From the IMG/VR virus record IMGVR_UViG_3300028372_000232, positions 1-36,957 of that record: a DNA stretch of 36,957 nucleotides, one strand, 5' to 3'. Every line of letters starts with the position of its first letter. Within the stretch, counting starts at the first letter, position 1. The notes beneath the pieces are model-generated. The model was not told where the DNA came from. It searched no databases and was given only the letters and a program-made list of their open reading frames with translations. The translations under genes were made by a program, and so were the position numbers. Of this stretch, positions 9,930 to 30,171 are shown piece by piece. The stretch comes from a virus.

Positions 9930-11184
9930 TTGTACGTTTTGTATGCATCCTTTCACAGGACTAGCAACACGCGAAGACGGTGCTGTAAAAGTTTGCTGTC
10001 GTTCGCAGCCTGTTGGGTGGATACAAGAAAATTCACTAGAAGAGATATGGAACAACGACAAGATGCGAGAGGTTCGCAGGCAGGTTTTGAACAACGAAAG
10101 GCCAGATGTGTGTAAACCTTGCTTCGACTTAGAGGATCAAGGCGTCGAGAGCTTACGACAGCGTCATATAGCTGGGGTTATCCCTGAGGCCAGGGTCAAC
10201 TTATATCCTGATGCATTGGACAGTTTGGACGACGACTACACAATGCCCTTTGAGATACCTACAATAGAAGTTAAAATCAATAACTTATGCAATCTCAAAT
10301 GCAGAATGTGCAACCCACTGGACAGCACTAGTTGGAAGGACTGGAACGAAGTCACTGAGTTCTACGAAAAAGAAAACAACTACCTTATTCCTACTGTAGA
10401 TGCGCTAGTTGACAAGCCCGGACAGTATATAGGGCCGTTTGACGATACCGAAAATTGGTGGATTAGCTTTGAGAAGCTGCTTCCTTACTTTCGCAGAGTA
10501 GAATTTGCAGGCGGCGAACCTCTAATGGACCCGAACCATTACAAGATTCTGGATATGCTAGCACCGTGGGGCGACAATATAGAGCTAAAGTACGCTACAA
10601 ACGGTACTACAACCGGTATAAGCAAGGGTCGTAACATACATGAATACTGGCCCAAGTTCAAAAGTGTAGCTGTAAACGTGAGCATAGACGGCTTAGGCGA
10701 CGTATATGAATACATTCGCGGCAACGGCAAGTTCGCAGACGTAGAAGAAAACGTCAAAATAATGAAATCTATCCCTACTGTTACAAGAATTGTCGGTGCG
10801 TTTACTGTGCAGGCCAACAACATTATGCAGATCGACAAGGTTATTGAATACTTTATCAACAAGATGGGCATAGTTTTTTACAGTCACCGTGTAAATTATC
10901 CTCAAGTATTAAGTGCTCAGGTCTTGCCCAACGAGCTAAAAGAGCGTATAATTGTAAATCTAGAACGTATGAAAACAGAAGTGTTATCCTATCCACTAGT
11001 ACAGGAGCATAGCCTATTAGAAACTGTTACATTACAGCAAATACAAGATAACATCAACTATCTAAAAGCAAAAGACCAGCATCACTTATGGGCTGATTGC
11101 GTTGAGTTCAACAGGCGCTTGGACAAAACACGTAATCAAGGCCCGTTTGAAGAAGTTAACCCGGAGTTTAAGCCCTACGTATGA
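9910..11184 (+). CDS. Radical SAM protein with N-terminal twitch/SPASM-type domain
   Basis: 424 residues. The TTG start at 9910 is supported by AAGGAG seven bases upstream, and starting at the later ATG 9943 would lose two cysteines. An N-terminal auxiliary cluster domain has C8, C11, C29, C30, C68 and C71 with 'EIWNNDKMREVR'. The radical SAM core then starts with 'CNLKCRMC' (C127, C131, C134) and has a GGEP motif ('FAGGEPLM'). This order matches the twitch-domain radical SAM family known from marine phages. It would use a [4Fe-4S] cluster and SAM to make a deoxyadenosyl radical; substrate unknown. It overlaps the QueC-like gene by 20 bases and the next radical SAM gene by ATGA. Confidence 0.85.
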   Translation: MNKQSNSCTFCMHPFTGLATREDGAVKVCCRSQPVGWIQENSLEEIWNNDKMREVRRQVLNNERPDVCKPCFDLEDQGVESLRQRHIAGVIPEARVNLYPDALDSLDDDYTMPFEIPTIEVKINNLCNLKCRMCNPLDSTSWKDWNEVTEFYEKENNYLIPTVDALVDKPGQYIGPFDDTENWWISFEKLLPYFRRVEFAGGEPLMDPNHYKILDMLAPWGDNIELKYATNGTTTGISKGRNIHEYWPKFKSVAVNVSIDGLGDVYEYIRGNGKFADVEENVKIMKSIPTVTRIVGAFTVQANNIMQIDKVIEYFINKMGIVFYSHRVNYPQVLSAQVLPNELKERIIVNLERMKTEVLSYPLVQEHSLLETVTLQQIQDNINYLKAKDQHHLWADCVEFNRRLDKTRNQGPFEEVNPEFKPYV

Positions 11185-12065
11185 AGAGTGTTACAAGTAA
11201 GTGGAACCATCAAAAGCAAATTAAAGTAGAATGGAACCTTGGCAAACGCTGTAACCTCGATTGTGCATATTGTCCTGCAGAAATTCACGACAACTTTTCA
11301 CCTCATACAGATATAGAAGTGCTAAAATCTACTGTAGACAAACTGGCTGCACTGCCTAAGTCTGTAAGAATAAGTCTCACGGGCGGTGAACCTTGTGTAC
11401 ATCCGAAGATAGACGAACTGTTAGAGTACGCTAGTACCAGGGTAGACTGGATCAACGTAACAACAAACGGAACTCGAACCTCGGAATGGTATGCAAAACA
11501 ACCTGTTAACCATTACGTGTTTAGTCTGCACTTTGACAACAAAGTAGTAGACAGAGCAATTAACACCATTATTGATTTCAATCACAAAACTATACTGCCG
11601 TTTCACGTCAATGTAATGGCTCACCACGAACACATGCCAGCAGTAAAAGAAGCAGCGAACCTATTTCGTGCTGCTGGAATCAAGTATGCTGTACGCAGGA
11701 TACGCTGGACTGAAAAGCATGACTGGTTTGACGACCTAAGATATAACCACGAAGACTTAAAATGGATACTGAACCAAGATGCGACTGCTCAAGCAAACTG
11801 CGTAGTAGACCATTACAAAGAAATGCACGCCAACGACATTATCAAGAAAAATCAAAATCAGTTTGAAGGTTGGAAATGTTACGCCGGAAGAGAAAGTCTT
11901 ATGATAAACTGGGACGGCGATGTTCATCGTGCTACTTGTAGAGTAGGCGGTAGTTTAGGCAACATTTATAACGGCACCTTCGAACGCCCCGAAGATGCTG
12001 TTATCTGCACAAGAAAGTGGTGCACCTGTGCTGCTGATATCCCTCTTACGAAGAGGAAGCAATAA
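11181..12065 (+). CDS. Radical SAM protein with SPASM-like C-terminal region
   Basis: 294 residues. 'CNLDCAYC' (C24, C28, C31) binds the SAM [4Fe-4S] cluster and 'LTGGEPCVHP' is the SAM-binding GGEP motif. The C-terminal part has more cysteines ('WKCYAGRESLMINWDGDVHRATC' and 'CTRKWCTC'), suggesting an auxiliary cluster. It ends with a basic 'PLTKRKQ' tail. Related ends occur in the 12046-13062 ('CQCQPDTHISKRK') and 20367-21371 ('SADSKIPKVK') proteins, so the three form one subfamily. ATGA-coupled to the upstream twitch-type radical SAM gene. Its 3' end overlaps the convergent 12046-13062 gene by 20 bases. Substrate unknown. Confidence 0.85.
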   Translation: MKSVTSKWNHQKQIKVEWNLGKRCNLDCAYCPAEIHDNFSPHTDIEVLKSTVDKLAALPKSVRISLTGGEPCVHPKIDELLEYASTRVDWINVTTNGTRTSEWYAKQPVNHYVFSLHFDNKVVDRAINTIIDFNHKTILPFHVNVMAHHEHMPAVKEAANLFRAAGIKYAVRRIRWTEKHDWFDDLRYNHEDLKWILNQDATAQANCVVDHYKEMHANDIIKKNQNQFEGWKCYAGRESLMINWDGDVHRATCRVGGSLGNIYNGTFERPEDAVICTRKWCTCAADIPLTKRKQ

Positions 12066-13062
12066 CCTTACGCTTTGAGATATGCGTGTCTGGCTGACAT
12101 TGACACTTTGAAAAAGGACACACAATTGATTTTAGCTCAAACTTGCCTGCGTTAAAGTCGTCCTCAAACGTTTCAGAAAACATGCTGATGTTGTAGTCGT
12201 CAAACAAGTCAGCATTACAACTTCCTCTTACTGTGCCATCGAATGTTATAACTAGATTCTCTAGCGGCACATCACAAAGCCACCCTTCAAAGTTGTTCAC
12301 ATCGGCGTTGATATAATCACTTGTACGCTTCGGCTCTACCGTTTCGTCGCTGTAGAACGCAATGCTGTCGTGAGTTCTAAACAGGTGCATGTTCTTTAGA
12401 ATAAAGTCGCTGTCCGGAATACGCTTTAGGTCACTCTTCATATACTCTTGCTGATCCGGGTTATAGTTAAGGTGATCTTTGCCAGGAAACTCTACTATAG
12501 GCTTTGCTTCGATAAACCAAGGATATTTGCTTTCTGTCTTCATCTTTTCTACAATAGACTTGCACTTTTCAAACTCGCTTGCGTCCATAAGCACCAGTGC
12601 TGTACCGCTGATACCTTGACTGTACAAATAATCGAGCACTTGTATCGAGTGGTCTATATCAGCAAACTCATGATGTACACTTAGAGTAACCTTGTCAAGG
12701 TGTTTGCAGTTATCTCTCCACCAGCGCAGGGTTCGGCTGCCGTTAGTAGTAACCGTAAGTTCAACTTCATGACGTTCTTTTATTTCACGGCAGAATTCTC
12801 CGAAGTGAGGCCACAATGTAGGTTCACCGCCGCCTACAAGATTGATATCAAATTTTGACTTGTCGTACTTTTCGGCATACATATCAAACAACAATCTAAA
12901 GTTCTTTACAACTGTGTCGACGTTCTTAGGATATCTAAAGTTAGCATCTTTGCTGCCAGGGAAGCAATAGGTGCAATTAAAATTACAAATGTCAGTTGGC
13001 CAGAATCTAATATCTAATACGTTCTTTGGCTGCAAGCTAAAAATTCTTTCTAGTTCTTTCAT
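12046..13062 (-). CDS. Radical SAM protein with SPASM-like C-terminal region
   Basis: 338 residues. 'CNFNCTYC' (C26, C30, C33), 'GGGEPTLWPHF' for the GGEP motif, and a C-terminal cysteine set ('WLCDVPLENLVITFDGTVRGSC', 'VCPFSKCQC') that aligns with the 11181-12065 protein. It is second in a leftward operon after the twitch-type radical SAM gene 13059-14471 (ATGA overlap). It lies tail to tail with 11181-12065, giving a mirror-image arrangement of two radical SAM pairs. Likely a post-translational or small-molecule radical enzyme; substrate unknown. Confidence 0.85.
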   Translation of the reverse strand: MKELERIFSLQPKNVLDIRFWPTDICNFNCTYCFPGSKDANFRYPKNVDTVVKNFRLLFDMYAEKYDKSKFDINLVGGGEPTLWPHFGEFCREIKERHEVELTVTTNGSRTLRWWRDNCKHLDKVTLSVHHEFADIDHSIQVLDYLYSQGISGTALVLMDASEFEKCKSIVEKMKTESKYPWFIEAKPIVEFPGKDHLNYNPDQQEYMKSDLKRIPDSDFILKNMHLFRTHDSIAFYSDETVEPKRTSDYINADVNNFEGWLCDVPLENLVITFDGTVRGSCNADLFDDYNISMFSETFEDDFNAGKFELKSIVCPFSKCQCQPDTHISKRKVIASSS

Positions 13063-14471
13063 AGTAAATGTGCTAACTCCGGGAATACTTCTTTAGCGTC
13101 TAAACCGCGTATGCTGTCTAGTTTGGTTACGTATTCTTTGAAACCCGATAACAAGTGGCTATTGTCTTGTGCGTCCATGTGTGCCAAGACTGCTTCCCAG
13201 CGTTTCCAGCCATAAGGATTAATATGCCAGAAATCGTCGTCTTGTCTATAATTGTCCCATAGCCATTCCTTGAACTCAGCGAATATCTCGCGCACTTCTT
13301 TCTTATCCTCCTCTGGCAGAATCTGTATACTGAGAAACGTAGGAATATACAGTAGGTGCATGTTTACTAGGCCGCCGCCCATCTGTACTCCGCCCGGAAC
13401 TGTACCTGCATTGAGCTTCTTAAAATTTGAACGTATCTTCCACTTCATGAACTCTGGCAGGTGCTTGATGTTAAAAATTTGAATAGCTGTTGCTAGACTG
13501 GTTTGAATGTTGTCTGGCGTGTTGTCTAACATATGAAGCGTCTTTTCAACCTGAGCAAAGTCTGTAGGAAATCGAATGTACTCGTCTCGACCGTAACACG
13601 CATCCATGCTAATAGCAAACTTGACCTTTCTAAACTTCTTCCAAAGTTCAATCAACTCGTCGTCAACTAACAGCCCGTTTGAATTATAACGCAACAATAT
13701 TTTGTCTTGATATCCTTGTCGAATTATTTCTTCAATAAACAGCTTATGCTCTTTAATCATCAAGGGCTCACCACCTGCAAAATATACCTGACGAAGGTTT
13801 GGAATTTGATTGTACATTTCATTCCAAAACGTGTCCTTCTCGTGCCACTTGTTGTCAAACTCTTTCTGATCCCACTGCATCTGACGCTTAACGTCAGGAT
13901 CTTCTAAAACCGGAATTAACTTTTTATGATCAGGTACCCACTTCGAACTGTCGTGCGGCGAACACATAACGCATTTGATGTTACAGGTGTGGCCTAAACG
14001 CAAGTCAAGATATTGTAACTTCTCTGGTACTGTACCGTCTTCTTCGGTTTGCTTTATTAAGAAAGGTATGTCGACGCCGTCTTGGTCCCATGTAAGTGTT
14101 TCCCATATACGTTTTGACACAACCCCTTGACTCTCTTCTTTGAAACACTTTGTACAACTCGCTGGTACTTCGCCTTTGAGCATAGTCTTGCGAACGTCTT
14201 TCATGTAGTCGTTGTTCCAAGCTGACATAGGTGTGTCTTTACCAAAGTTTGCAGGTTTGCCATCTTCCATTTTGACCAGACCTACTTCGTGGTCACTGCC
14301 CGCGCCTGAGGCATTTGCACTGCAACACAAGCGCATGTCGCCGTTAGGACGGGTGGCAAAATGAATCCACGGGAGCACACAATAGCTGGGTGACTCCGAC
14401 ACTGCTTCTATTTTGCGTTGGTAATCGCCTAAAGATGTATCCTCGGGCTGCATCCACGAATTGTCTGTCAT
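13059..14471 (-). CDS. Radical SAM protein with N-terminal twitch/SPASM-type domain
   Basis: 470 residues. An N-terminal cluster domain with C31, C49, C50, C106 and C109 ('YCVLPWIHFATRPNGDMRLCC', 'AWNNDYMKDVR', 'CTKC') comes before the core 'CNIKCVMC' (C163, C167, C170) and 'YFAGGEPLM'. Same architecture as the 9910-11184 protein but diverged. The start at ATG 14471 has a good ribosome-binding site (CGGAG, six bases upstream). It opens a two-gene leftward operon, divergent from the 14558 gene. Reaction: SAM cleavage to a deoxyadenosyl radical on an unknown substrate. Confidence 0.85.
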   Translation of the reverse strand: MTDNSWMQPEDTSLGDYQRKIEAVSESPSYCVLPWIHFATRPNGDMRLCCSANASGAGSDHEVGLVKMEDGKPANFGKDTPMSAWNNDYMKDVRKTMLKGEVPASCTKCFKEESQGVVSKRIWETLTWDQDGVDIPFLIKQTEEDGTVPEKLQYLDLRLGHTCNIKCVMCSPHDSSKWVPDHKKLIPVLEDPDVKRQMQWDQKEFDNKWHEKDTFWNEMYNQIPNLRQVYFAGGEPLMIKEHKLFIEEIIRQGYQDKILLRYNSNGLLVDDELIELWKKFRKVKFAISMDACYGRDEYIRFPTDFAQVEKTLHMLDNTPDNIQTSLATAIQIFNIKHLPEFMKWKIRSNFKKLNAGTVPGGVQMGGGLVNMHLLYIPTFLSIQILPEEDKKEVREIFAEFKEWLWDNYRQDDDFWHINPYGWKRWEAVLAHMDAQDNSHLLSGFKEYVTKLDSIRGLDAKEVFPELAHLL

Positions 14472-19173: not shown

Positions 19174-20386
19174 TTATAACCTCAAATATTGATAATATGT
19201 CATTTGCTTTTGTGGTTTGAGCTTGAAGAATATAATTCTTTCTGTTGTGTATTAGCTTGTTCTTTACTGATTCAAACCTTTTTATCTTTTCGTTGCTGGA
19301 CAAGTTACAGAAGTTTCTTATCTGTTCAAGCACTGCTTTTACTCGTTCGAAATGATCTTCGATGCTGTCGTACGATTCATCAAACAGTTCAGGAAACGTT
19401 TCGTATCCTTGTCCTTTCAGATATGATAACATGCCGGGTGCAGCAATTAATATAAAAGGATGTTGATTAAATATCGGCTTGTATGTCTTTTCAGTTACAA
19501 ATCGTGTTGTCATCGACATTTCGCTTACTATGCTGAAAAAAGTTCTATCATAGTGACTCTGGACAACCTGGTTTTGATTCTGAAACGAGAAGTCACTAGG
19601 ATATTTGTCTAAAATCATAGGCGTCCTGTTTTTGAAAAAGTTTCGAGCATAAGCTGTATCAATGCCTAGATCGGCAAGCGTGTTAATACAACCGTCTATA
19701 CTGTTCGCAGACTGCATATAAGTATCAAACACAAAACTTACTAAGCTATGATCTAGCAATTCCATCCTATCAAGTTCACTTACAGCGTATACTCTTGAAA
19801 TACGAACTTTGCCATTATAGAATAAAAAGTTTTTATCTTTGCTATCGACAGAAATCTTCTTATACTCAGAAACGTCTGTTGATATGTCAACAAGTGTATC
19901 GTAATACTCTCCTTTAAAATAATCAAAGTTGATTATTCGAGTAAAAAAATCATCGATTCCGTTGTCTGTCAAAAACCTTTGATAGTTATATTGGAAGTCT
20001 AGATCCGAAAACACAAGGTAAACATCTGCTGACAGCAGGTTCTCTTTCTTCAGGTAATTGTAAATACGTAACAACCAATCGCCGGCATCAAATCCTTCTT
20101 TACCGAAATTAAGCAATAACGAAACGCCATCTCTGATCATCTGCTTTGTTACTTCGGGTATTTCCTTGAATACATTTACGTCTTGTTCTACTTCTTTTAG
20201 TTCAATTACATAGACATTTAGATCATCGTAGTCGACTGCATCTGTAGTTTTCTTAAGACAATAATTGATCTCAATGAGATCTAACTTTTCTTTAAGCAGT
20301 CGTTCAGAATATGCGTAACTTGTCAAGGAACAGTTACCAATATCAGAATCGTACCATAATACTATGTCAAAGCAACTTTGTGACAT
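19097..20386 (-). CDS. Glycosyltransferase-like protein, paralogue of the 26059-27303 gene
   Basis: 429 residues. It has the two landmarks of a phage glycosyltransferase-like family: a mid-protein 'KNFLFYNGKVRISRVYAVSEL' (about 185-205), resembling 'LNRRPRPHR', and a C-terminal 'FVTEKTYKPIFNQHPFILIAAPGML' (296-320). The latter 'EKT.KPI...PF' motif is shared with the 26059-27303 protein. It probably transfers a sugar from a nucleotide-sugar donor in the cytoplasm; donor and acceptor unknown. The start at 20386 has AAGG six bases upstream and lies within the end of the preceding radical SAM gene. The C-terminal 25 residues run into the methyltransferase gene. Confidence 0.55.
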   Translation of the reverse strand: MSQSCFDIVLWYDSDIGNCSLTSYAYSERLLKEKLDLIEINYCLKKTTDAVDYDDLNVYVIELKEVEQDVNVFKEIPEVTKQMIRDGVSLLLNFGKEGFDAGDWLLRIYNYLKKENLLSADVYLVFSDLDFQYNYQRFLTDNGIDDFFTRIINFDYFKGEYYDTLVDISTDVSEYKKISVDSKDKNFLFYNGKVRISRVYAVSELDRMELLDHSLVSFVFDTYMQSANSIDGCINTLADLGIDTAYARNFFKNRTPMILDKYPSDFSFQNQNQVVQSHYDRTFFSIVSEMSMTTRFVTEKTYKPIFNQHPFILIAAPGMLSYLKGQGYETFPELFDESYDSIEDHFERVKAVLEQIRNFCNLSSNEKIKRFESVKNKLIHNRKNYILQAQTTKANDILSIFEVINESRTRRRPVLDGRYTQLARQVQNS

Positions 20387-21371
20387 TTTTTACCTTGGGT
20401 ATCTTTGAATCAGCAGAGCTAACACAGGTCGGCGTAACACAGGGCATTGCACCTTTGAACAAATCAAAACCTTGGTCGATTGTACCAAGTGGTGCGTCAT
20501 GACAGCTATACGAACGTTTTATTTCGCCGCCGGGCTCTCTAATAATGCAACTCTGAAACCCTGCGTTACAGTTCCAGCCCTGAAACTTGTTAAACCCAAA
20601 TGCGTTAAACCGTTCTGCTTGATCTATATAATACTTATTTCCTTGGTCATCCTCTAGCCTAACTTGCGGCACTACTTCTCCGTCATACTTTTGTGGGAAC
20701 CCAATTCGGAGAAGTTCTTTTTGCCGGTCAGTATACCCTGATACAACAAAACTTGCTGTAGGGTCGCTCTGAGGCTTTAACGTGACGTTTATGCCACGAT
20801 TCGCAAAACGCTTGCACCGTTCGTAGTACTCTTCAAACAACTCAGGCACCATTACCTGATTGATTGTGACATACACACCTGCTCGCTGTAACTGCAAGCA
20901 TTTATCGCCAAACTCTTGTTCGTTTGCAAACTCACCGTGAAAGCTAGCTGTAATTGATCGACGGTCTAGTTTATCTGTAGAGTCTAACCACTTATTCCAC
21001 CATTTACTTCCTGGTGACATATTAGTAGTCATGTGAATACTTTGGTATTCCGGCAATTTGTCGTTTGCGTAATGATCTATTAACTCGCCGAAATGTTTAT
21101 ACGCTGTAGGTTCGCCGCCTGAGAAAGAAAAGTGAAAGTCTGTAAAACCGTTAGCTCTTGCCTGGCGTTTTATCTCGTCAATAGTCTGCTTATAAACTTC
21201 TAACGGGCGATGGTCCGGAATACTTGTACGAGCATAGGGCCAGCAGTAAGAACACTCGTAATTGCAGAATCGCGCTAATATCCAAGACACAGAAAACAAG
21301 TCGTTATCGAGAAGAGTTTGTTGTCCGAAACTAGTAATGTCTTTGAACGGAATACTGTTATAGTTTGTCAT
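20367..21371 (-). CDS. Radical SAM protein with SPASM-like C-terminal region
   Basis: 334 residues. 'CNYECSYC' (C36, C40, C43) and 'FSFSGGEPTAY' mark the radical SAM core. C-terminal cysteines in 'WNCNAGFQSCIIREPGGEIKRSYSC' and 'CVTPTCVSSADSKIPKVK' align with the 11181-12065 and 12046-13062 proteins. It overlaps the upstream radical SAM gene by ATGA and the downstream glycosyltransferase-like gene by 20 bases. Substrate unknown. Pairing with another radical SAM gene repeats the pattern seen twice at 9910-14471. Confidence 0.85.
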   Translation of the reverse strand: MTNYNSIPFKDITSFGQQTLLDNDLFSVSWILARFCNYECSYCWPYARTSIPDHRPLEVYKQTIDEIKRQARANGFTDFHFSFSGGEPTAYKHFGELIDHYANDKLPEYQSIHMTTNMSPGSKWWNKWLDSTDKLDRRSITASFHGEFANEQEFGDKCLQLQRAGVYVTINQVMVPELFEEYYERCKRFANRGINVTLKPQSDPTASFVVSGYTDRQKELLRIGFPQKYDGEVVPQVRLEDDQGNKYYIDQAERFNAFGFNKFQGWNCNAGFQSCIIREPGGEIKRSYSCHDAPLGTIDQGFDLFKGAMPCVTPTCVSSADSKIPKVKNVTKLL

Positions 21372-22432
21372 TTCTTACCACCATCATAAATTGCCGACGA
21401 ACATTGTCTTGCGCAAGTGAGGCACTTATTTTCGCCCTGCCAGTGATCTTCTATCTTTTGCCATAATACATTTTGCGTGTGTAACACACCGTCATTACAG
21501 TTAGGAATGCCTATATCTTCAAGCATTTCTTTTGAACGCTGAACAGCGATGTTACGCAGCTTATGAATGGGCAAATTTTCTTCCACTGGCTGCTCGAGAT
21601 AGTCGCCGCCTATCCAACAGCAAGGAAATATATTGCCGTACGGATCTACATATATCCCTTGCTCTGTTTCACATTGCGGATCTATTACGCTCTGGGCCGC
21701 TACGTTTCTTCTGAAGTCGTTGTCTAATAACTTATCAATTTCTTTGTTCGGAGTCTGCTTAAACTCGGGCAACTGTGCAGGCTTAATACTGTATGCATGA
21801 GAACCATCCAAGTTTTGCACTTCGAACTCTGACATTTCATAGAAGCGTTTGGTGCTGACAAAGTTTACTTGACTAACACCTCTGTCATACAAGTAAGTCT
21901 CAAGCTCTTTAGTTTCATGCTCGTTATGTTCAAAAACTAAACTGTCAACTTTCGCAGTGCCGCCTGCTTGCACGTATGCAACCATGTTTTCGATAACTTT
22001 TTCAAACTTAGTGTTACGTCGGTATAACTCGTGCTTCCCTGCAAATCCGTCAACAGCAAATACTACTTCACTGTTTGATTGAGTTCCTAATACGTTGGCC
22101 AGTTTTGCCCACCATTCAGTAGAACGCATTCCTCCGTTTGTATGAATGGCTAGCCGAACTGTCGGATTGCATTCTCTAATGTATCCGAATATTTCTAAAC
22201 AATCACGAGCAAAAGCAGGATCACCGTAGTTTCCGCAACTGTAAACATTGTCGAGCTGAGATAGGAAGCTAGGAGGGAACCATGCTTTAAAAACGTCAAG
22301 TGAGATATCACCGTTGCGTATAAACGAACGAGTAGCTCCGCCATGAAAGTTTCTAGCACACATCGGGCACTGTGCTTGACATTTGTCTGTTAACTCTAAA
22401 TGTAGAGTGCGTATGTCTTTAACTGGCTGCAC
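21368..22432 (-). CDS. Radical SAM/SPASM protein
   Basis: 354 residues from a GTG start at 22432, supported by a strong GGAGGA five bases upstream. 'CQAQCPMC' (C18, C22, C25) begins the core. The GGEP region is replaced by 'SCGNYGDPAF', a GNYGDP variant seen in some SPASM proteins. The C-terminal auxiliary domain carries 'CETEQGIYVDPYGNIFPCC' and 'CLTCARQC', fitting one or two extra [4Fe-4S] clusters. It overlaps the upstream GT-A gene by 14 bases and the next radical SAM gene by four. SPASM enzymes usually modify peptides or act as dehydrogenases; the substrate here is unknown. Confidence 0.85.
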   Translation of the reverse strand: MQPVKDIRTLHLELTDKCQAQCPMCARNFHGGATRSFIRNGDISLDVFKAWFPPSFLSQLDNVYSCGNYGDPAFARDCLEIFGYIRECNPTVRLAIHTNGGMRSTEWWAKLANVLGTQSNSEVVFAVDGFAGKHELYRRNTKFEKVIENMVAYVQAGGTAKVDSLVFEHNEHETKELETYLYDRGVSQVNFVSTKRFYEMSEFEVQNLDGSHAYSIKPAQLPEFKQTPNKEIDKLLDNDFRRNVAAQSVIDPQCETEQGIYVDPYGNIFPCCWIGGDYLEQPVEENLPIHKLRNIAVQRSKEMLEDIGIPNCNDGVLHTQNVLWQKIEDHWQGENKCLTCARQCSSAIYDGGKK

Positions 22433-23456
22433 TATTGTCCTCCAGGAACCTTGCGTACAGCCAGTCGTAATCGTTTATCTTGCCCAACTGAACGCTAGAC
22501 TCAATAGAAAGCCCAAATTCACGACCGTGTATAGCGCCTGCTCGCGCAAACCTGCCATATAGACTATTACCATTGCTTCGGCTACACCAGGTCTCGAGTC
22601 TTGCTTCTGTTTCTTCATCAATTTGTCCTCTAATGTTTTTACTTGCTAGTTTTGCACATTCTCTAAAAGCACTTCGCCAAGTTGAAAACTCATCTGTATC
22701 GAAACGTGTTACATTTGACACCTCCTCAACTGCTTTAAATTTGTTGCTAATACTAGTTGTCATATCTGCTGACTCTACGTCTACTCGTTTTGTCAGCTCT
22801 GAGGGTAATAGTTTAACACCTCCGTAACCATAAGTCAAGTCATTTACAGGATTTTTACTTCGCCAAACATGTACGCAATCGTGTTCCCACCTAGGCACTT
22901 GATAATCAAAGTTAAAATCGTCGACAATTTCTGCGTCGCCATCGACTACCCAAAACATCTCAGTGTCACATAGGTTAGCTGCTTCAATGTGCGCCTGATG
23001 AATGCCCTTAACGCCGTGCACACGCTTTGCACGAGGTGCAATTTTTAGCAACCGTTCGTAGTTTTCGTCTGCGTTAGACTCTTTGTACGAAATAAACACA
23101 ATGTCAAATGGCTTAGGACGGCTGGCTATTTCGTCAACTTCTTTCTTTTTAATAAAGAACCGATATTCTAATTCTCGACGATTGAGCTTGATTCTTTTCG
23201 GACATAACACTATGCCATCGTAATACTCACCGTTTTTAAAAACATGAACATACTCCTTGCTCCATTCGTCCGGTTGCAATGAGAAGTCAAAGTTGTCACA
23301 AACGTTTATATCATTCCATACAACCCAAAACATTTTAGTCATTGACTTGTTTTGTGCTTTGGCAAAATCATCGGCTCTTTTAGCAGTAGGATACTTTTCT
23401 TTAAGTTTTTTCCATTGGTCGTTCTCAGGACCAACAAAGATAATATCGCTGGTCAT
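22419..23456 (-). CDS. GT-A glycosyltransferase-like protein with internal module duplication
   Basis: 345 residues. The C-terminal module (about 117-345) has 'FDIVFISYKESNADENYERL', 'RVHGVKGIHQAH' and 'MFWVVDGDAEIVDDF', where D172-G-D174 is the DxD donor/metal motif. It is clearly related to the 28695-29600 protein. Residues 4-107 repeat the same plan in shorter form ('IIFVGPENDQWKKL', 'MFWVVWNDINVCDNF'), but the DxD reads W47-N-D49, so this copy is probably non-catalytic. The start overlaps the stop of the upstream dehydrogenase half (TAATG) and has GAGG five bases upstream. Likely sugar transfer from a nucleotide-sugar, perhaps one made by that dehydrogenase. Confidence 0.65.
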   Translation of the reverse strand: MTSDIIFVGPENDQWKKLKEKYPTAKRADDFAKAQNKSMTKMFWVVWNDINVCDNFDFSLQPDEWSKEYVHVFKNGEYYDGIVLCPKRIKLNRRELEYRFFIKKKEVDEIASRPKPFDIVFISYKESNADENYERLLKIAPRAKRVHGVKGIHQAHIEAANLCDTEMFWVVDGDAEIVDDFNFDYQVPRWEHDCVHVWRSKNPVNDLTYGYGGVKLLPSELTKRVDVESADMTTSISNKFKAVEEVSNVTRFDTDEFSTWRSAFRECAKLASKNIRGQIDEETEARLETWCSRSNGNSLYGRFARAGAIHGREFGLSIESSVQLGKINDYDWLYARFLEDNSAAS

Positions 23457-24064
23457 TAAAACCTCGTGTTTCCATAATATATAACTTCGCTTACGCTCGA
23501 AGTCAGCTTCCTCCAGGGATCTACTACGATGCTAAACGGCGGTATCGAGCAATATAACTCGTCCTTGGTCGATTGCCCTGTGTATTCATACGTAATTGCT
23601 GCTGAGTGCGCCATTAGAAACACGCCCGGACGCTCGGGCTGATAATCGTCGCCTGTATAAGGATCTATATAAATCGGTGGTATGCCGGCCTTTTCACAGT
23701 AGTAGCCTACTAATAAGCTATAGCTCCCATCAACGTAAGGTACTTTAGGTTTATATGCCTTACCATGGATGTATAGAGGCATATTGTTTTCTCTAGCTAG
23801 ATCGACTAGTTTAGTTGCTAAGTTTTCAGCCTGCGACTCCCTCGACGTCATTACTGCATCAAACAAGTCATATCCTAGGTCTAGCTTTTCTGCCATATAA
23901 CGCAGGGCAATATTGTCTCTCGGGTGACAATTGTGTACTACTATACCAGTATCACTTTGTAGGAAGTACTGGTCGTCTTTCGTTGGATGATTTGGCTCAA
24001 CTTCTACGTTGTATACCGGACCTTGGTAATAAAAAGACTCTATTCTGTCAATGCTTTTTTTCAT
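23456..24064 (-). CDS. Split-intein C-part fused to C-terminal half of UDP-glucose/GDP-mannose-family dehydrogenase
   Basis: 202 residues. Residues 1-45 are a C-intein: block F-like 'GPVYNVEVEPNHP' (15-27) and block G 'GIVVHN' (40-45), followed by Cys46 as the +1 nucleophile. From Cys46 on, 'CHPRDNIALRYMAEKLDL' is the dehydrogenase segment right after the catalytic Cys (family pattern GGxCxPKD..AL). 'IHGKAYKPKVPYVDGSYSLLV' and 'FSIVVDPWRK' match the second Rossmann domain. Splicing with the 24909-25976 product would add 157 residues to 249, giving about 406, the usual size. Such enzymes oxidise a nucleotide sugar to its uronate with NAD. The ATG overlaps the stop of the endonuclease gene (ATGA). 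Confidence 0.9.
   Translation of the reverse strand: MKKSIDRIESFYYQGPVYNVEVEPNHPTKDDQYFLQSDTGIVVHNCHPRDNIALRYMAEKLDLGYDLFDAVMTSRESQAENLATKLVDLARENNMPLYIHGKAYKPKVPYVDGSYSLLVGYYCEKAGIPPIYIDPYTGDDYQPERPGVFLMAHSAAITYEYTGQSTKDELYCSIPPFSIVVDPWRKLTSSVSEVIYYGNTRF
23930..24064 (-). other. C-intein segment (45 residues)
   Basis: It spans the ATG to the terminal His-Asn of the intein and ends exactly before the catalytic Cys codon TGT at 23929-23927. Length and motif order (block F then block G ending VVHN) are typical for the C-part of naturally split inteins. Confidence 0.88.
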
Positions 24065-24870
24065 AACTTAATTCCTAAGGCTTTTAGATCTCTTTCTAAG
24101 AGTATGCGTAAGTTTAAGTCCGGATGCTGCTCGGCCATCAGCTCAAACTTTCTTTTTTGTATTCTATACCAGTGTGTTGCTTTAGGGTCGACGTAAGATT
24201 GCCATTCGTACACATAAAAATCAGGAAAATAATGGTGAGTTAGTCCGTCATCAGCTACATACGGTATCTTTCCCTTGTGACATTCAAATCTTAGATTATT
24301 ATTATCGAGATACTCGATAAATTTTAACTCGTACCGTCCTTGAACTTTGTACGCAGTTCCGTTACTATGTATATAAGTATGCCAGTTAGCTCGTCCAGAA
24401 GTATTAGCATTATCATAACATCCTCTTGCCCAGGCATCGATTGAACCTTGTTTAAACTTAGAACGAAATGTCTTATCTTCCATGAGCTTAGACCTAGTTT
24501 TTGAAACCTTTTCTCTAATCTCAGGGCGTTTCATGCCGTTGTTATTGCCTAAATTCATACCTTTTAGTTTTTCAGATATCTTCTTTTTTATCTCGTTACC
24601 TCGAGTAGCATACGCAGTTCTTACTCCTTGCGTCACTTTTTCTTTTATACCTGGCCTGGAAGAAAGTATCGGTTGCCAACAAGTATTACAATAATCTTTG
24701 TTAAACCATTCGTTTTTCATCATCTTAATATAATGGCTTTTTAAGCGAGAATGTATCTTGTTGCAGTTGTCGCACGTTAATTTTAGATATAGTTTATTAA
24801 CTTCTCGATAACCAGTCTTGTTTTGTTTAGATTTTTCCTTTACTCTTAAAACATATTCTTCTATAATCAT
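24061..24870 (-). CDS. Free-standing homing endonuclease between split-intein halves (Vsr-like, PD-(D/E)xK)
   Basis: 269 residues from ATG 24870; a TTG at 24912 touching the upstream stop would add 14 unconvincing residues. Domains in order: a zinc-finger-like segment (C33, C36, C61, C64); a basic repeat region (about 70-130) with NUMOD3-like motifs 'KKKISEKLKGMNLGNNNG' and 'IREKVSKTRSKL'; and a C-terminal nuclease domain with E181 ('YELKFIEYL'), D217 ('YFPDFYV') and 'VDPK' (D228, K230), the Vsr-like PD-(D/E)xK pattern. Endonucleases of this type are known next to split inteins in phage fractured genes. It probably cuts intein-free copies of the dehydrogenase gene so that the whole cassette is copied in. 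It lies between the two halves with an ATGA overlap at its end. Confidence 0.85.
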   Translation of the reverse strand: MIIEEYVLRVKEKSKQNKTGYREVNKLYLKLTCDNCNKIHSRLKSHYIKMMKNEWFNKDYCNTCWQPILSSRPGIKEKVTQGVRTAYATRGNEIKKKISEKLKGMNLGNNNGMKRPEIREKVSKTRSKLMEDKTFRSKFKQGSIDAWARGCYDNANTSGRANWHTYIHSNGTAYKVQGRYELKFIEYLDNNNLRFECHKGKIPYVADDGLTHHYFPDFYVYEWQSYVDPKATHWYRIQKRKFELMAEQHPDLNLRILLERDLKALGIKL

Positions 24871-24908
24871 ACTAATATTTAACAGTATATTTGAACATAA
24901 CAAATGCC

Positions 24909-25229
24909 TCAATTGTCCAACATATACAACTTGTCTGTTTCTAGTATATCTTCTGCTCTTACTACTAGTCTAGTGTTATCTCGCAACACTGGTATTAAAT
25001 GATCATTAGTGGTTATTAGTTCACTGCTACCAACTATAAATCTATACATATTCCCTTTATATTGCCTAGTAGTAACCTGGTCTATCTTTTTATACTCGGC
25101 TGAAGAACACGCATAATTTGACGATTTAATTACCCTAGTTTGATCTTTGTCGACGTTGTATTGCTGGTACAGTTCTTCTATAGGCATCTCAATGTCATCT
25201 ACGTTAACAAGAAAATTAGGCAGCACACA
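24909..25229 (-). other. N-intein segment (106 residues)
   Basis: It begins at the TGT codon 25229-25227 (Cys1, right after GGG) and ends at the TGA 24911-24909. Block B has the T-x-x-H-like 'TTNDH'. Length of about 100 residues with no endonuclease domain is typical of N-parts of split inteins. Confidence 0.88.
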
Positions 25230-25976
25230 GCCACCGCCGTCGCCCATGCCTGCTGTCATATACTGTGGACTCATGATACGCATAGTAGAATCTGCTAAGG
25301 CTTTGGTTACTACATCTACGTCTATGTTTCCTTGTTTTTGTGCAACATCCTGAATCATGTTTACAAGGCCAATCTTAGTGGAGATGAACGTGTTGTAAAA
25401 TACTTTGATGCACTCGCACTCGTCCCATGTGCCTACAACGTACCTTGGTTCGTTTTCCATTACAGTCTTGTAAAACTCAATAAGCTGCTTTGCATCGCCC
25501 GAGCGTTCGCCGTCCTCAGTACCGATCATTATCATCTCTGGGTTTACCATATCCCACTTTACTGAGCCCATTGCAATTAAGTAGGGATTGTACACAAAGC
25601 GAGTGTCCGGAACAAGATCAATAAGTTGTTCGCGGGTGGTACCTGGCAACACTGTAGAAACTAACACGAGCAACTGGTCTGCATTCATGTTTAGATTCGC
25701 TTCTACTAGTACTTGCTTGACTATGTCGTAACTAAAGTCTTTAGGTGGCAGGTGCGACGAAGGAGCACTACCGTCATACGCAGGGTCGTGGGGAGTAGGC
25801 ACAGCAACAAATACTATATCCTTGTCTACAACACATTCGCCTATAGTGTCTACAACGTCTACAGTATCGCTACTGACCTTAGCAATATCATACCCTGAAA
25901 CTGCATGACCTTTATCTGCCATAGCCTCTGCACATGGCATGCCGAGTTTACCTACTCCAATAAATCCTATATTCAC
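24909..25976 (-). CDS. N-terminal half of UDP-glucose/GDP-mannose-family dehydrogenase fused to split-intein N-part
   Basis: 355 residues from GTG 25976 (AGGAG five bases upstream). Residues 1-249 are the NAD-binding and central domains: 'MNIGFIGVGKLGMPCAEAMA' Rossmann loop, 'DIVFVAVPTP', 'LVSTVLPGTT', 'FVYNPYLIAMGS', 'ECIKVFYNTFISTKIGLVNM' and 'GMGDGGG'. Cys250 then starts the N-intein where the catalytic Cys of the enzyme should be. Residues 250-355 carry block A ('CVLPNFLVNVDD...PIEELY') and block B ('YRFIVGSSELITTNDHLIPV'), then a stop (TGA 24911-24909). First gene of the leftward operon and preceded by a GATAAGTA box. It would be inactive until trans-spliced to the 23456-24064 product. 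Confidence 0.9.
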   Translation of the reverse strand: MNIGFIGVGKLGMPCAEAMADKGHAVSGYDIAKVSSDTVDVVDTIGECVVDKDIVFVAVPTPHDPAYDGSAPSSHLPPKDFSYDIVKQVLVEANLNMNADQLLVLVSTVLPGTTREQLIDLVPDTRFVYNPYLIAMGSVKWDMVNPEMIMIGTEDGERSGDAKQLIEFYKTVMENEPRYVVGTWDECECIKVFYNTFISTKIGLVNMIQDVAQKQGNIDVDVVTKALADSTMRIMSPQYMTAGMGDGGGCVLPNFLVNVDDIEMPIEELYQQYNVDKDQTRVIKSSNYACSSAEYKKIDQVTTRQYKGNMYRFIVGSSELITTNDHLIPVLRDNTRLVVRAEDILETDKLYMLDN

Positions 25977-26058: not shown

Positions 26059-27303
26059 ATGAAAAGAAAGAACAATGTAATCAGTAAAAACCCATTTATT
26101 AGAGAAGCGAGTGAAAACCACACCAGTCTGAGGATGTTAGATTCTATTTTCGACGATATGTTTTATAACACAGACAACGAACTCGGTCATTTAAAAAACT
26201 TTGATTACATACTTGCTCAACTAGAATACGGAGACTGGAGTACTGCTCCTGACGTATTCAAGTATCTTAACAAAAAGCTCTTAAAAGCTATGAAAAAGAA
26301 AAGAATGTTCTTTATTTTTGATGCATCTTTAGAAGGGTTTAGTCCTACCGGCGATTATTCTATATTTGATTACTTATACAGAAGCTGTGAAATACGTAAA
26401 ATAGATCCGCGTATGGTAATTTACCTTTCAGGAAACCTCAAAGACGAGGAGAACATAAAGGCATGGGCAGAAAGAACTAATCAACGGCCTATTCATGTTG
26501 TCTCGTATCTTGCGTTCGAGAATTTTACTAAGTACACCAAAAAAGCAAAACATCCGAGGACCGGTAAACCCCTAGATGCAGACGAACTTTATAAACAATC
26601 TGTGGAACTATGTAAAAAGAAATTCGAGTCAAGATACTTTTCTAGTTTAAGTAGAGTGAATCGACACGAACGAACAAACGCAACTTTTATGCTATGTGAT
26701 CACAACGTATCAAAGTACGCTCTTATTAGTCACAACACCCTCGACGAAGAAAGAATAGAGCAGCTAAAAGAATGGGGTAAAAATCATAAATTCAGTGAAG
26801 TTTCTATACAGCGATGGATTGATAAACTGCCGTTTATTGTCGACTATAAAAACTTCGACGTTAACTGGGCCGATGAACTCCCTTGGGGTCATATCTTTGA
26901 TCAAACTATTTTTCAGCTGACTAACGAGACTTTGGTGGATGATTTAGATAATACTAGTTTGTTTTACAGCGAGAAGACGTTTAAACCAATCTTAAAATTT
27001 CAACCGTTTGTTATCTACGGGCAGGTAGGTTGCAATCATGCACTAAAAGACTTAGGGTACAAGCTGTACGACGAGTGGTTTGATTTGAGTTTTGACTTCG
27101 AAGAAGACGACACTCTTCGATACAGAAAGTTATTACTAAGTATCAATAAAGTTTGTAAACACCTAGACACATTAACTAGACAGGAGAAAATAGAATGGCG
27201 TTTTAAAAACGAAGAGATTCTACGTCACAATTACAATGTAATGAAAAACTCAGCTTACTCAAAGAATAAGCTGTATCAGTTTTTTAAGAATCTAAGCGTT
27301 TAA
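26059..27303 (+). CDS. Glycosyltransferase-like protein, paralogue of the 19097-20386 gene
   Basis: 414 residues. ATG 26059 is preferred because an in-frame upstream start (26026) would include the late-promoter box. 'FSSLSRVNRHERTNATFML' (194-212) is the 'LNR..R.HR' landmark and 'FYSEKTFKPILKFQPFVIYG' (302-321) the 'EKT.KPI' motif shared with the 19097-20386 protein. Middle segments ('MFFIFDASLEGF', 'MVIYLSGNL', 'IHVVSYLAFENF') look like alternating strands of a Rossmann-like domain. Probably a sugar transferase. It is a single rightward gene between two leftward operons; its end overlaps the convergent radical SAM gene by 12 bases. Confidence 0.55.
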   Translation: MKRKNNVISKNPFIREASENHTSLRMLDSIFDDMFYNTDNELGHLKNFDYILAQLEYGDWSTAPDVFKYLNKKLLKAMKKKRMFFIFDASLEGFSPTGDYSIFDYLYRSCEIRKIDPRMVIYLSGNLKDEENIKAWAERTNQRPIHVVSYLAFENFTKYTKKAKHPRTGKPLDADELYKQSVELCKKKFESRYFSSLSRVNRHERTNATFMLCDHNVSKYALISHNTLDEERIEQLKEWGKNHKFSEVSIQRWIDKLPFIVDYKNFDVNWADELPWGHIFDQTIFQLTNETLVDDLDNTSLFYSEKTFKPILKFQPFVIYGQVGCNHALKDLGYKLYDEWFDLSFDFEEDDTLRYRKLLLSINKVCKHLDTLTRQEKIEWRFKNEEILRHNYNVMKNSAYSKNKLYQFFKNLSV

Positions 27304-28698
27304 CAAAGACTTCCATTCGTGATAAACATCTTCCATTTCTGGAAAAGTTGCTAAAAAGTCTGTGCCGCGTCGACAGTCATGTTCGTCAACGAATATAACA
27401 AAATCTCTTCTTAAAGTATCTAGTTCTTCTTGACTTAGATTCTCGTTGGAAAACACTTCTTGCAGCCTCTGAAACTTGTCAGCTTCAAACGAATAAAATC
27501 CGTAATTAGCTTTTGCCGGGGCGCTAGGGTCTTCTAGATTATTACGTATAAACTCTAGTTGCTTAGTGATATACTTGCTATTCCATCCTGGAGGAGCAAT
27601 CTTTATTGCTTGATGTTGAGGATACCTCAAATACGGAACATCTAGAATAATAGGGATTCCTCTCCGCGAGCTTCCAAATTCTTGCTTGATAGACAGAATA
27701 TCTTCGAGAAACTTATCAAACGACATCATGCTCAATAGGTTGTAAGTACACATACAAGTAAAGGTACACTCAGGAACTTCTGTCAAAACACGTCGAATGT
27801 TGAATAACCATTTATCGTAGTCCAGTCCATGACGGATATATTCTGCCTGTGCTCCGTATGCTTCGGCGCTAGTAAACACCTTGAACTTTTTGACTAGTTT
27901 GTTATCGCAAATGATCTTTACTTTGCTGAGGAACTTTTCAAAAAGTTCGTCTGGAATACACATATTACTATTGATAGAAAACTCAACCTCTGGTAGCGGG
28001 TTCTCTATGATATAATCCAGCATCTTAAAAGTATCTTTAGAAAGTAGTGGCTCGCCGCCTGTTATCCTAAAGTGATTTAACTTGTCAGAAATCTCAGGCC
28101 ACCATTTCCAAAATGCATCTACATACGGATTGTATTCTCTTACAGGAATAGGCACTGTATCATCTCGTTGCATCGGATACAAGCTGTTGAACGGAACACT
28201 GGTGTTGTATGCGCCGTGATGCTGAATTTCGTCCATCCATTTACTACTAAACTGTGGCCCGCAATAGCTACACTTGAAATTGCAAACACTACTAAAGCTA
28301 ATCTCTAAATAACTAGGGACTACATCATGATCCCATGGCATTGACTTAATCTCGTTCAGATGCGGCAGTGCCCAAGGCTCCTGCGACTTGTAAGTACGAT
28401 CACTAAACGAGTCGTCGTTGTTATCCTCAACACGCCAGCAGTAGTCACATTCACTCGGGCGTCCGCCCTCTAACATAGTCTTTCTTTGTTTTTTCTTAAA
28501 CTTGGTGTTGTGCAATGCACTAGGATTGTCTTCTAGTTCTTCAACAGGAATCTTATGCGCTGCCGGATGGTGACAACTATGCGTTTGACCGCTGTGAAGG
28601 TGCAGAGTGACCTGTTGCCATTTAGCTAAACAAAAGCCTGGGCCAACTTCGTCTAGTGCATTAGTCACAGCTATTAATCTATTATTGGGGTTACTCAT
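27292..28698 (-). CDS. Radical SAM protein with N-terminal twitch/SPASM-type domain
   Basis: 468 residues; ATG 28698 with AGGAAG six bases upstream and an ATGA overlap with the preceding gene. The N-terminal auxiliary region has C23, C42, C84 and C87 with His-rich 'SCHHPAAHK' and 'CDYCWRVED'. The core has 'CNFKCSYC' (C139, C143, C146) and 'RITGGEPLLS'. Third member of the twitch-first group, after 9910-11184 and 13059-14471, and the only one without a radical SAM partner next door. The His near the N-terminal cysteines could replace a Cys ligand of the auxiliary cluster. Substrate unknown. Confidence 0.82.
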   Translation of the reverse strand: MSNPNNRLIAVTNALDEVGPGFCLAKWQQVTLHLHSGQTHSCHHPAAHKIPVEELEDNPSALHNTKFKKKQRKTMLEGGRPSECDYCWRVEDNNDDSFSDRTYKSQEPWALPHLNEIKSMPWDHDVVPSYLEISFSSVCNFKCSYCGPQFSSKWMDEIQHHGAYNTSVPFNSLYPMQRDDTVPIPVREYNPYVDAFWKWWPEISDKLNHFRITGGEPLLSKDTFKMLDYIIENPLPEVEFSINSNMCIPDELFEKFLSKVKIICDNKLVKKFKVFTSAEAYGAQAEYIRHGLDYDKWLFNIRRVLTEVPECTFTCMCTYNLLSMMSFDKFLEDILSIKQEFGSSRRGIPIILDVPYLRYPQHQAIKIAPPGWNSKYITKQLEFIRNNLEDPSAPAKANYGFYSFEADKFQRLQEVFSNENLSQEELDTLRRDFVIFVDEHDCRRGTDFLATFPEMEDVYHEWKSLLNA

Positions 28699-29600
28699 TT
28701 AATTCTTCCTATAATTCTTGGTGTGTTTTCGTAAACTTGCTTGAAGAACCTAGAACCGTTTGCATCGATTTCTGCTAGTTCAAGATCTAGACTCTCACGC
28801 AAAACCATTCCAAAATAACCTACTTCTTCAAGAGCATCATCGGCGTCAGCAATCTTTTCAGACTTCTTTGCCCAGTAATCTGTCAAGTACTCAAAATCGC
28901 GCACCTGTGTATAATCCCAATCTGTGCAGTTTGTAAGCCATGCGCCTTCACGAGCACCTAACATGCTCCATATCCCATTTTCAACGTCGGCTCCTACGTT
29001 ACACCAAACTAACAGCCTATCGTAATTTTGCCACCATACTGACTTTATGTCAGAAGTCTTTTCGCCTTGGTTAAGACTCATCTTTACACCTTCACGAAAC
29101 CCTGCACGCCACGCTTGGAACGGGCTAGCATTTGTGTAACTAGTACAATAGTTGGCATTGAATTGATAGTAAAGGTCATTGAAACAAAATTCTACTACAC
29201 TGCGATGATCTTTGGAGTCTGAGTTTTCATGAGTCTTCATGTTGTTGACAAACTCTCGTGTCCACATTTTGAGGCCGCCGTTGCCATACTTCAGACCGTT
29301 TACATGAACATTGCCGCACCAACTGAAAACATGCTTATCTGTAAGGGCGAGCTCGTCTAGATCAACTTCTACATTTAAAAAGTTTGGATCGATGATATTG
29401 TCAGCGTCTACAGTAACAAAGTATTCTGTTTCGCTGATGTCTGCACAGGCTTTGTGTGCTGCATCGCTGCCTTTTACACCGTGTACGCGCTTTGCCCAAG
29501 GTAACTTAGAGCAGAGATCTGTGTAATTTTTATCCGCGTTGGGCTCATCGTAGCTTAAAAATATAATGTCTTGATCTACTACTCTAATCTTGTTCGTCAT
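28695..29600 (-). CDS. GT-A glycosyltransferase-like protein
   Basis: 301 residues from ATG 29600, chosen over an in-frame ATG 29651 because AAGAGGA lies six bases upstream and the protein then starts where its relative does. 'DIIFLSYDEPNADKNYTDL' (11-29), 'RVHGVKGSDAAHK' (38-50) and 'YFVTVDADNIIDPNF' (60-74; D65-A-D67 is the DxD motif) match the C-terminal module of the 22419-23456 protein. 'GNGGLKMWTREF' corresponds to the acceptor-side glycine strand. Likely nucleotide-sugar transferase acting in the cytoplasm. The start overlaps the upstream gene end by 17 bases. Confidence 0.65.
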   Translation of the reverse strand: MTNKIRVVDQDIIFLSYDEPNADKNYTDLCSKLPWAKRVHGVKGSDAAHKACADISETEYFVTVDADNIIDPNFLNVEVDLDELALTDKHVFSWCGNVHVNGLKYGNGGLKMWTREFVNNMKTHENSDSKDHRSVVEFCFNDLYYQFNANYCTSYTNASPFQAWRAGFREGVKMSLNQGEKTSDIKSVWWQNYDRLLVWCNVGADVENGIWSMLGAREGAWLTNCTDWDYTQVRDFEYLTDYWAKKSEKIADADDALEEVGYFGMVLRESLDLELAEIDANGSRFFKQVYENTPRIIGRIK

Positions 29601-30171
29601 TAAAAATCCTCTTAAATTGGTATGTGTCAAACTTGCGCGACGTGTACACACTTATCGGTTGTTCTGTGTGTTCAAACGGCATTGTAAACGGAAGTACTAC
29701 GTAGTTATTGCGTACCACTTCACCTAGTTCAACAAAAAGAGTTTTATACAGAACGTTAGGATCGCCTTTAGCTGTAATACTCAACATCATCGTGTCATTT
29801 ATACTGACGCCTTTCTGCCTTAGGCTATCTCCTAGTGCACGACCCATGTGCACTTTCCAGCATGTATTCTTAACATCTTGAACAATTAGTATATCCGGAG
29901 ACTTACCGTTTTTAGTTGGTACTTCGTAGATAAAGTCATTGATATGGTCGCCTTTTACACTAGTGATTCGACGATGCCCAAATTCGAGGCGTTTGAGTTT
30001 AGGCTCGTACCTTACTTCATAGTCGTCAGTAAGTTCTTCTCCGTCGATTAGTTTGCGCACTTGTTCAAGAGGAACAGGCATAGAGTTTTCGCCTGGGTAT
30101 TCTTTACCTTTGATTCCTAGAATGCTGCCTGTTTCTTTGTCGAACTTTACGTACATCATTTTTTCAGACAT
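29584..30171 (-). CDS. Conserved-looking phage protein of unknown function
   Basis: 195 residues. The sequence is beta-rich, with 'YEVRYEPKLKRLEFG', 'SPDILIVQDVKNTCWKVHMG' and 'NNYVVLPFTMPFEHTEQPISVYTSRKFDTYQFKRIF'. There is a single Cys and no nucleotide or metal motif, signal peptide or membrane helix. The start at 30171 has AAGGA nine bases upstream and overlaps the GT-A gene 30156-30992. The style of alternating short strands would fit a small virion-associated or accessory protein, but I cannot name it. Confidence 0.7.
   Translation of the reverse strand: MSEKMMYVKFDKETGSILGIKGKEYPGENSMPVPLEQVRKLIDGEELTDDYEVRYEPKLKRLEFGHRRITSVKGDHINDFIYEVPTKNGKSPDILIVQDVKNTCWKVHMGRALGDSLRQKGVSINDTMMLSITAKGDPNVLYKTLFVELGEVVRNNYVVLPFTMPFEHTEQPISVYTSRKFDTYQFKRIFNDEQD

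Follow-up and report, generated by a model that had tools for sequence, protein, structure and literature searches.

How can a viral gene that is broken immediately before the codon of its catalytic cysteine still give rise to an enzyme? This question is raised by a locus on a 37-kb viral fragment, IMG/VR record IMGVR_UViG_3300028372_000232 (positions 1-36,957; this whole stretch of 36,957 nucleotides is hereafter called the window), in which a class-1 split intein (106 + 45 residues) interrupts the gene for a UDP-glucose/GDP-mannose dehydrogenase (UGDH) directly ahead of the codon for the catalytic cysteine and a nuclease gene occupies the break. An earlier interpretation made from the letters of the DNA (the sequence-only reading) had proposed three open reading frames (ORFs) here, two of them encoding dehydrogenase pieces fused to intein halves and the third a homing-type endonuclease lying between them. 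ORF calling recovered all three at the claimed places, all on the minus strand, and profiles and homologues agreed with the identity of the middle one. The locus very probably encodes a two-piece UGDH that is trans-spliced by the class-1 split intein into a 406-residue enzyme, with a homing-type nuclease in the break. The features are listed below, all on the minus strand; L-numbers such as L002 denote comparison contigs.

24909..25976, minus: N-half ORF, i.e., N-extein plus N-intein, GTG start, 355 amino acids (ORF calling, profiles)
25230..25976, minus: N-extein, UGDH residues 1-249, NAD-binding and central domains (profiles, intact relatives)
24912..25229, minus: N-intein, 106 residues, with Cys1 and the TxxH motif (T74, H77) (profiles, homologue alignment)
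24061..24870, minus: homing-type endonuclease gene within the break, 269 amino acids from ATG 24870 (profiles, homologues, L002 indel)
24679..24774, minus: zinc-knuckle-like four-cysteine stretch of the nuclease (C33, C36, C61, C64), putatively zinc-binding (homologue alignment)
24079..24339, minus: T7 endonuclease I-like nuclease domain, E181, D217, D228, K230 (profiles, homologues, predicted structure)
24073..24076, minus: AGGA, possible ribosome-binding site, 8 nt upstream of the C-half ATG
23456..24064, minus: C-half ORF, i.e., C-intein plus C-extein, 202 amino acids; its start overlaps the nuclease stop as ATGA
23930..24064, minus: C-intein, 45 residues, VVHN end (H44, N45) (profiles, homologue alignment)
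23459..23929, minus: C-extein, 157 residues, CHPRD start (profiles, intact relatives, solved structures)
23927-23929, minus: first Cys of the C-extein, i.e., the +1 residue, aligned with the catalytic Cys of UGDH (alignment to solved structures)
23897..23929, minus: apparent co-conversion tract, 33 bp of C-extein common to the window and L002, not L005 (DNA comparison)

A dehydrogenase broken at its catalytic cysteine

The two exteins (249 + 157 = 406 amino acids) match the profiles UDPG_MGDP_dh_N, UDPG_MGDP_dh and TIGR03026 as well as the PHROG for UDP-glucose dehydrogenase, and they carry the hallmarks of UGDH, namely the NAD-binding and central domains and the catalytic cysteine in a GGxC motif. 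About 75 intact viral relatives read through the 249|250 junction with zero inserted residues. This comparison is the strongest check of the broken-gene reading, and together with the family profiles it bears out the earlier claim that the exteins join precisely into a 406-residue UGDH. Intact relatives also occur in annotated phage records, e.g., those of Synechococcus phage Bellamy and Pelagibacter phage HTVC008M, and no split UGDH was found in such records. As to a possible UDP-binding C-terminal domain, the C-half is aligned by TIGR03026 (E 0.012), TuaD (4e-5) and PHROG 9148 (2e-18), and Pfam UDPG_MGDP_dh_C gave no match.

The GGxC cysteine is the catalytic nucleophile in the UGDH family. 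The break adjoins a cysteine aligned with the GGSC cysteine in the solved structures of UDP-glucose dehydrogenase (3vtf) and GDP-mannose dehydrogenase (1mfz), and one and the same cysteine would serve as both the +1 splicing nucleophile and the nucleophile of the enzyme. Because the break site is the catalytic cysteine, each half alone is predicted to be inactive, and the activity of the enzyme should depend entirely on splicing. The identical layout recurs in many independent contigs, which excludes an assembly error. A second, different copy of the UGDH gene was not found in the record, a 37-kb fragment in which only the broken copy is seen.

The split intein and its predicted splicing

The sequence-only reading placed an N-intein from Cys250 and a C-intein ending in VVHN|C, and profile searches agreed on both. 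The alignment of NCBIfam intein_Nterm begins exactly at residue 250 of the N-half (E 0.0039) and Pfam Intein_splicing spans residues 261-352 (1e-4), both below cut-off, whereas intein_Cterm passes its cut-off with a match to residues 16-46 of the C-half. Relatives of the same family pass the curated intein_Nterm cut-off of 24.5 bits (30.9 bits for L084, 29.2 bits for L245), which argues that the weak scores of the window's N-intein reflect divergence, not chance. In tblastn, the N-intein by itself matched other proteins of phages just weakly, and these were for the most part polymerases. The features of a class-1 intein are present, i.e., Cys1, TxxH, the penultimate His, the terminal Asn and the +1 nucleophile, and all the splicing residues are retained in five divergent homologues.

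In the proposed mechanism, each dehydrogenase piece would be made as a fusion to one half of the split intein, after which the halves would associate post-translationally and splice in trans via Cys1, TxxH, His44/Asn45 and the +1 cysteine, joining the exteins into the 406-residue nucleotide-sugar dehydrogenase. The halves might instead stay unspliced and act as a non-covalent two-subunit enzyme, given that unspliced gene pieces occur in phages and that fragments could assemble the parts of an active site; a T4-like ribonucleotide reductase whose gene is interrupted by a homing gene works as non-covalent subunits, according to the work cited in PMC3322345 (doi 10.1073/pnas.0609915104). However, every splicing residue is retained, the intein halves evolve under constraint, and half-inteins that were not removed would flank the catalytic cysteine on both sides, all of which make a two-subunit enzyme scarcely credible here.

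The nuclease in the break

Two start candidates exist for the nuclease gene, TTG 24912 and ATG 24870, both ending at 24061. Translation very probably starts at ATG 24870, giving 269 amino acids, because the near-identical copy in L002 has a 5-bp indel that breaks the frame of the longer TTG version. The N-half and the nuclease gene therefore lie 38 nt apart, and of the overlaps described in the sequence-only reading the one between the nuclease and the C-half (ATGA) stands and the one between the N-half and the nuclease does not. The AGGA lying 8 nt before the C-half ATG may be a ribosome-binding site.

A profile of the nuclease matches the T7 endonuclease I structures (PDB 1m0d, 1fzr, 2pfj; 3e-7 to 7e-7) and brings the D and E/K positions of the active site into line with theirs, and Pfam and PHROG also indicate a T7 endonuclease I-like identity. 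The four positions of the T7 endonuclease I active site are kept as E, D, D, K, in which E becomes D at the third position and, in our reading, E181 at the alignment edge would be equated with T7 E20. The residues C33, C36, C61 and C64 together with E181, D217, D228 and K230 are invariant across six nuclease homologues, and the predicted structure of the nuclease domain has a pLDDT (predicted local distance difference test) of 90. The protein thus resembles a T7 endonuclease I-like PD-(D/E)xK homing-type nuclease; unlike T7 endonuclease I, it adds an N-terminal region with the four invariant cysteines, which would be expected to bind zinc, and it sits in an intein break.

The earlier description of this protein as "zinc-finger/NUMOD3/Vsr-like" survives in its four invariant cysteines, whereas the NUMOD3 match is not significant and the best match is to T7 endonuclease I. 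The Vsr/EDxHD type is ruled out by the motif E...PDF...(V/I)DxK and by the best match, which is to another family, and profile searches gave no match of the EDxHD family to the window nuclease. EDxHD nucleases such as I-Bth0305I (PMC3943268) share with it the phage homing-type character, a metal-dependent core and extra DNA-binding parts, but differ in the motif. Distant relatives of the nuclease (L094-L107) are apparently free-standing in phage contigs, and no intein halves were seen in their flanks.

Architectures among viral contigs

Sequence searches, together with searches that used back-translated patterns of the junction, yielded about 42 viral contigs with a C-half beginning inside the intein, several of them near-identical to one another and a few covering the C-half only. 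About 37 are of the CHPRD type, and five (L246, L247, L248, L249, L250) represent a second phage UGDH type (CFPKD or CLPKD), whose C-extein is just 51-55 residues long, as though the UDP-binding domain were absent. The most common architecture is a split intein with the endonuclease I (EndoI)-like nuclease, which is also found in the second type except in L247 (CFPKD type), where the halves are separated by a 195 nt gap without a nuclease ORF. In L216, L217, L237 and L241, the same break holds a GIY-YIG-like nuclease instead of the EndoI-like one, a label based on a YIYK...WYIGS motif and a PHROG homing endonuclease match (3e-11), with no match of Pfam GIY-YIG to the L216 nuclease; either a swap of nucleases or separate invasions of one split intein would account for it. 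The halves in L225 and L233 are split with merely 16-21 nt between them, and L245 carries a contiguous mini-intein of 154 residues from the same phage intein family.

Other insertions occur in these genes as well. L222 and L229 hold a different contiguous LAGLIDADG intein (368 residues) at the same residue. Alongside the GGG|C split intein, the UGDH gene of L084 (L084 2836-4968) and of L085 bears another insert, which is contiguous, 355 residues long and intein-like at its ends (FYN|C...QGN|TFIS); this insert follows the active-site Asn (FYN|TFIS), and both insertions lie at active-site motifs.

The carrier of the window's gene is probably an uncultured T4-like aquatic phage; a T4-type gp23 capsid gene is present in two contigs (175.7 and 230 kb) that bear the broken CHPRD-type gene. 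The gp23 gene of the L246 contig seemed to hold an insert as well, and no intein features were seen on reading it.

Transfer of the element and selection on its parts

The contigs L002, which is occupied, and L005, which is empty, share 99.95% identity over 1981 bp upstream and 99.6% over 1148 bp downstream. L002 and the window share an almost identical element (N-intein 318/318, nuclease 850/852, C-intein 135/135, plus the 5-bp indel before the nuclease) within extein DNA that is 78.3% (N-extein) and 70.5% (C-extein) identical. The differences between L002 and the window end at the last upstream extein base and restart 33 bp into the C-extein, and in those 33 bp the bases of the window are present in L002 and absent from L005. 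This flank looks co-converted, as the footprint of a recent homing event. The element is likewise less diverged than its host gene in L088/L091, with synonymous divergence (dS) of 0.24-0.50 for the element vs. 2.2-3.1 for the exteins. The marks of a mobile element are therefore found, i.e., near-isogenic occupied and empty alleles, an element more alike than the host gene and co-conversion at its border. The intein has a patchy distribution over the dehydrogenase tree, with at least five changes (L002 by L005, L004 by L036, the window near L006). The T7 endonuclease I-like nuclease would cut intein-free alleles near GGG|C, and repair would copy the element in; the footprints of transfer are observed, and cleavage of the empty alleles is presumed.

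Between the window and L084, nonsynonymous divergence (dN) is 0.23 for the N-intein, 0.17 for the nuclease and 0.18 for the C-intein, and dS is ~1.8 or saturated, pointing to purifying selection on all parts, each of which appears to be kept as a functional protein. These values bear on the possibility that the intein is dead and the gene decaying, with two fragments and a selfish nuclease left and the spliced enzyme never made. Such decay would fit the short C-exteins (51-55 residues) of some CFPKD-type relatives, whose enzymes may be reduced, and splicing itself is deduced from sequence. However, purifying selection is strong on both intein halves, the nuclease and the exteins, the catalytic residues of intein and enzyme are retained, and divergent phages share the same open layout, so that decay is very improbable.

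Several points weigh against a trans-spliced UGDH with a mobile nuclease gene. The window's own N-intein scores lie below the curated cut-offs, the TxxH histidine is replaced by Gln in one relative (L230), some deep branches of the dehydrogenase tree are long and unsure, and trans-splicing of the halves is predicted from their residues. In addition, Foldseek searches against PDB with the full nuclease model and with the nuclease domain alone returned zero significant structural matches, and the family assignment of the nuclease therefore rests on profiles.

Cellular inteins at the same residue and the origin of the split

Contiguous inteins in UDP-glucose 6-dehydrogenase of Halobacteria, methanococci, Thermococcus and Dictyoglomus are known as the "udp" allele (PMC4071816). 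In one pattern scan across genomes, UGDH genes interrupted by contiguous inteins at the residue of the phage break came up in Halobacteria, Omnitrophota, Planctomycetota, Anaeromyxobacter, Heimdallarchaeota, Aquificota and others, and these cellular inteins at GGx|C agree with the "udp" allele. The GGx|C residue of UGDH is thus an established intein target. In two halobacterial contigs (L148, L170), the UGDH intein ORFs are apparently broken within the intein, ~100-125 nt apart; decay or frameshift is the probable cause, with incipient splitting in archaea as the other option.

The phage split intein may have descended from the contiguous cellular "udp" inteins and been split by nuclease invasion, as opposed to being an independent invader. 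The insertion point is identical, a profile of the phage inteins matches the cellular UGDH inteins at ~1e-13 (in a small set), and the contiguous mini-intein of L245 belongs to the phage family. However, all class-1 inteins resemble each other, the best match among solved structures is a different intein (MJ0781), conserved active-site codons draw inteins independently, as seen in the different contiguous intein of L222 at the same residue, and the intein tree covers UGDH inteins only. Descent from the cellular inteins is therefore put forward tentatively, as somewhat less probable than not.

In the intein tree (a quick method, a small tree), contiguous L245 groups with split L212/L230 with support of 92-94, and the nuclease-free L225/L233 fall among nuclease-bearing inteins. 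These placements suggest nuclease loss and possibly re-fusion, with repeated splitting as the alternative. The phage UGDH gene occurs in several forms at one residue, i.e., empty, contiguous mini-intein, split without nuclease, and split with either of two unrelated nucleases. These forms may together represent the whole natural course by which a split intein is built up and undone, including re-fusion into one gene, although we regard this reading as rather unlikely.

Relation to known systems

Fractured genes with split inteins were reportedly described by Dassa et al. in 2009 from phage-like metagenomic loci, in eight host types that were DNA synthesis and repair enzymes. The present locus is alike in having an enzyme gene in two parts, a split intein and, between the two halves, a homing endonuclease gene that stands alone, all on one strand. 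It differs in its host, a sugar-nucleotide dehydrogenase in place of the enzymes of DNA synthesis and repair, which are a trait of the reported types and do not define them. It also differs in its nuclease, which is T7 endonuclease I-like (in relatives GIY-YIG-like) and not of the Vsr/EDxHD kind. The cellular "udp" inteins share the host family, and those retrieved share the GGx|C residue, but they are contiguous and mostly ~450-490 residues long, whereas the phage ones are split with a separate nuclease gene.

The sequence-only reading had also suggested that UGDH may be a new host gene. This part does not hold, because contiguous inteins occupy the exact same residue in archaea and bacteria; the split form, in contrast, appears to be unreported. 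In the literature searched, UGDH was met as an intein host only in PMC4071816, where it figures as an allele and splitting does not come up. Within an incomplete coverage of the literature, a split UGDH intein was not found in any report.

With this locus, the breaking of genes by split inteins would reach into carbohydrate metabolism and involve another family of nucleases. The relatives show one gene uncut, cut and in intermediate states, offering a view of how broken genes arise and spread; with near-isogenic occupied and empty alleles, a footprint of co-conversion and in-between architectures all present in a single gene, the origin of split inteins becomes directly testable, including the routes of nuclease invasion, nuclease swap, nuclease loss and possible re-fusion. 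The UGDH split-intein family also offers protein ligation a large number of new split inteins of natural origin.

Neighbouring genes

Downstream of the C-half, window 22419-23456 encodes a 345-amino-acid protein of repeated modules, for which no family was found; it is also related to window 28695-29651, and its homologue at L002 8524-10152 (542 amino acids) aligns with it in several registers. Radical S-adenosylmethionine (SAM)-like genes lie in window 9910-14471, 20367-22432 and 27292-28698. A weak match was obtained for 21368-22432, the remaining radical-SAM-like genes were judged by eye, and 27292-28698 clearly encodes a twitch-domain radical SAM protein.
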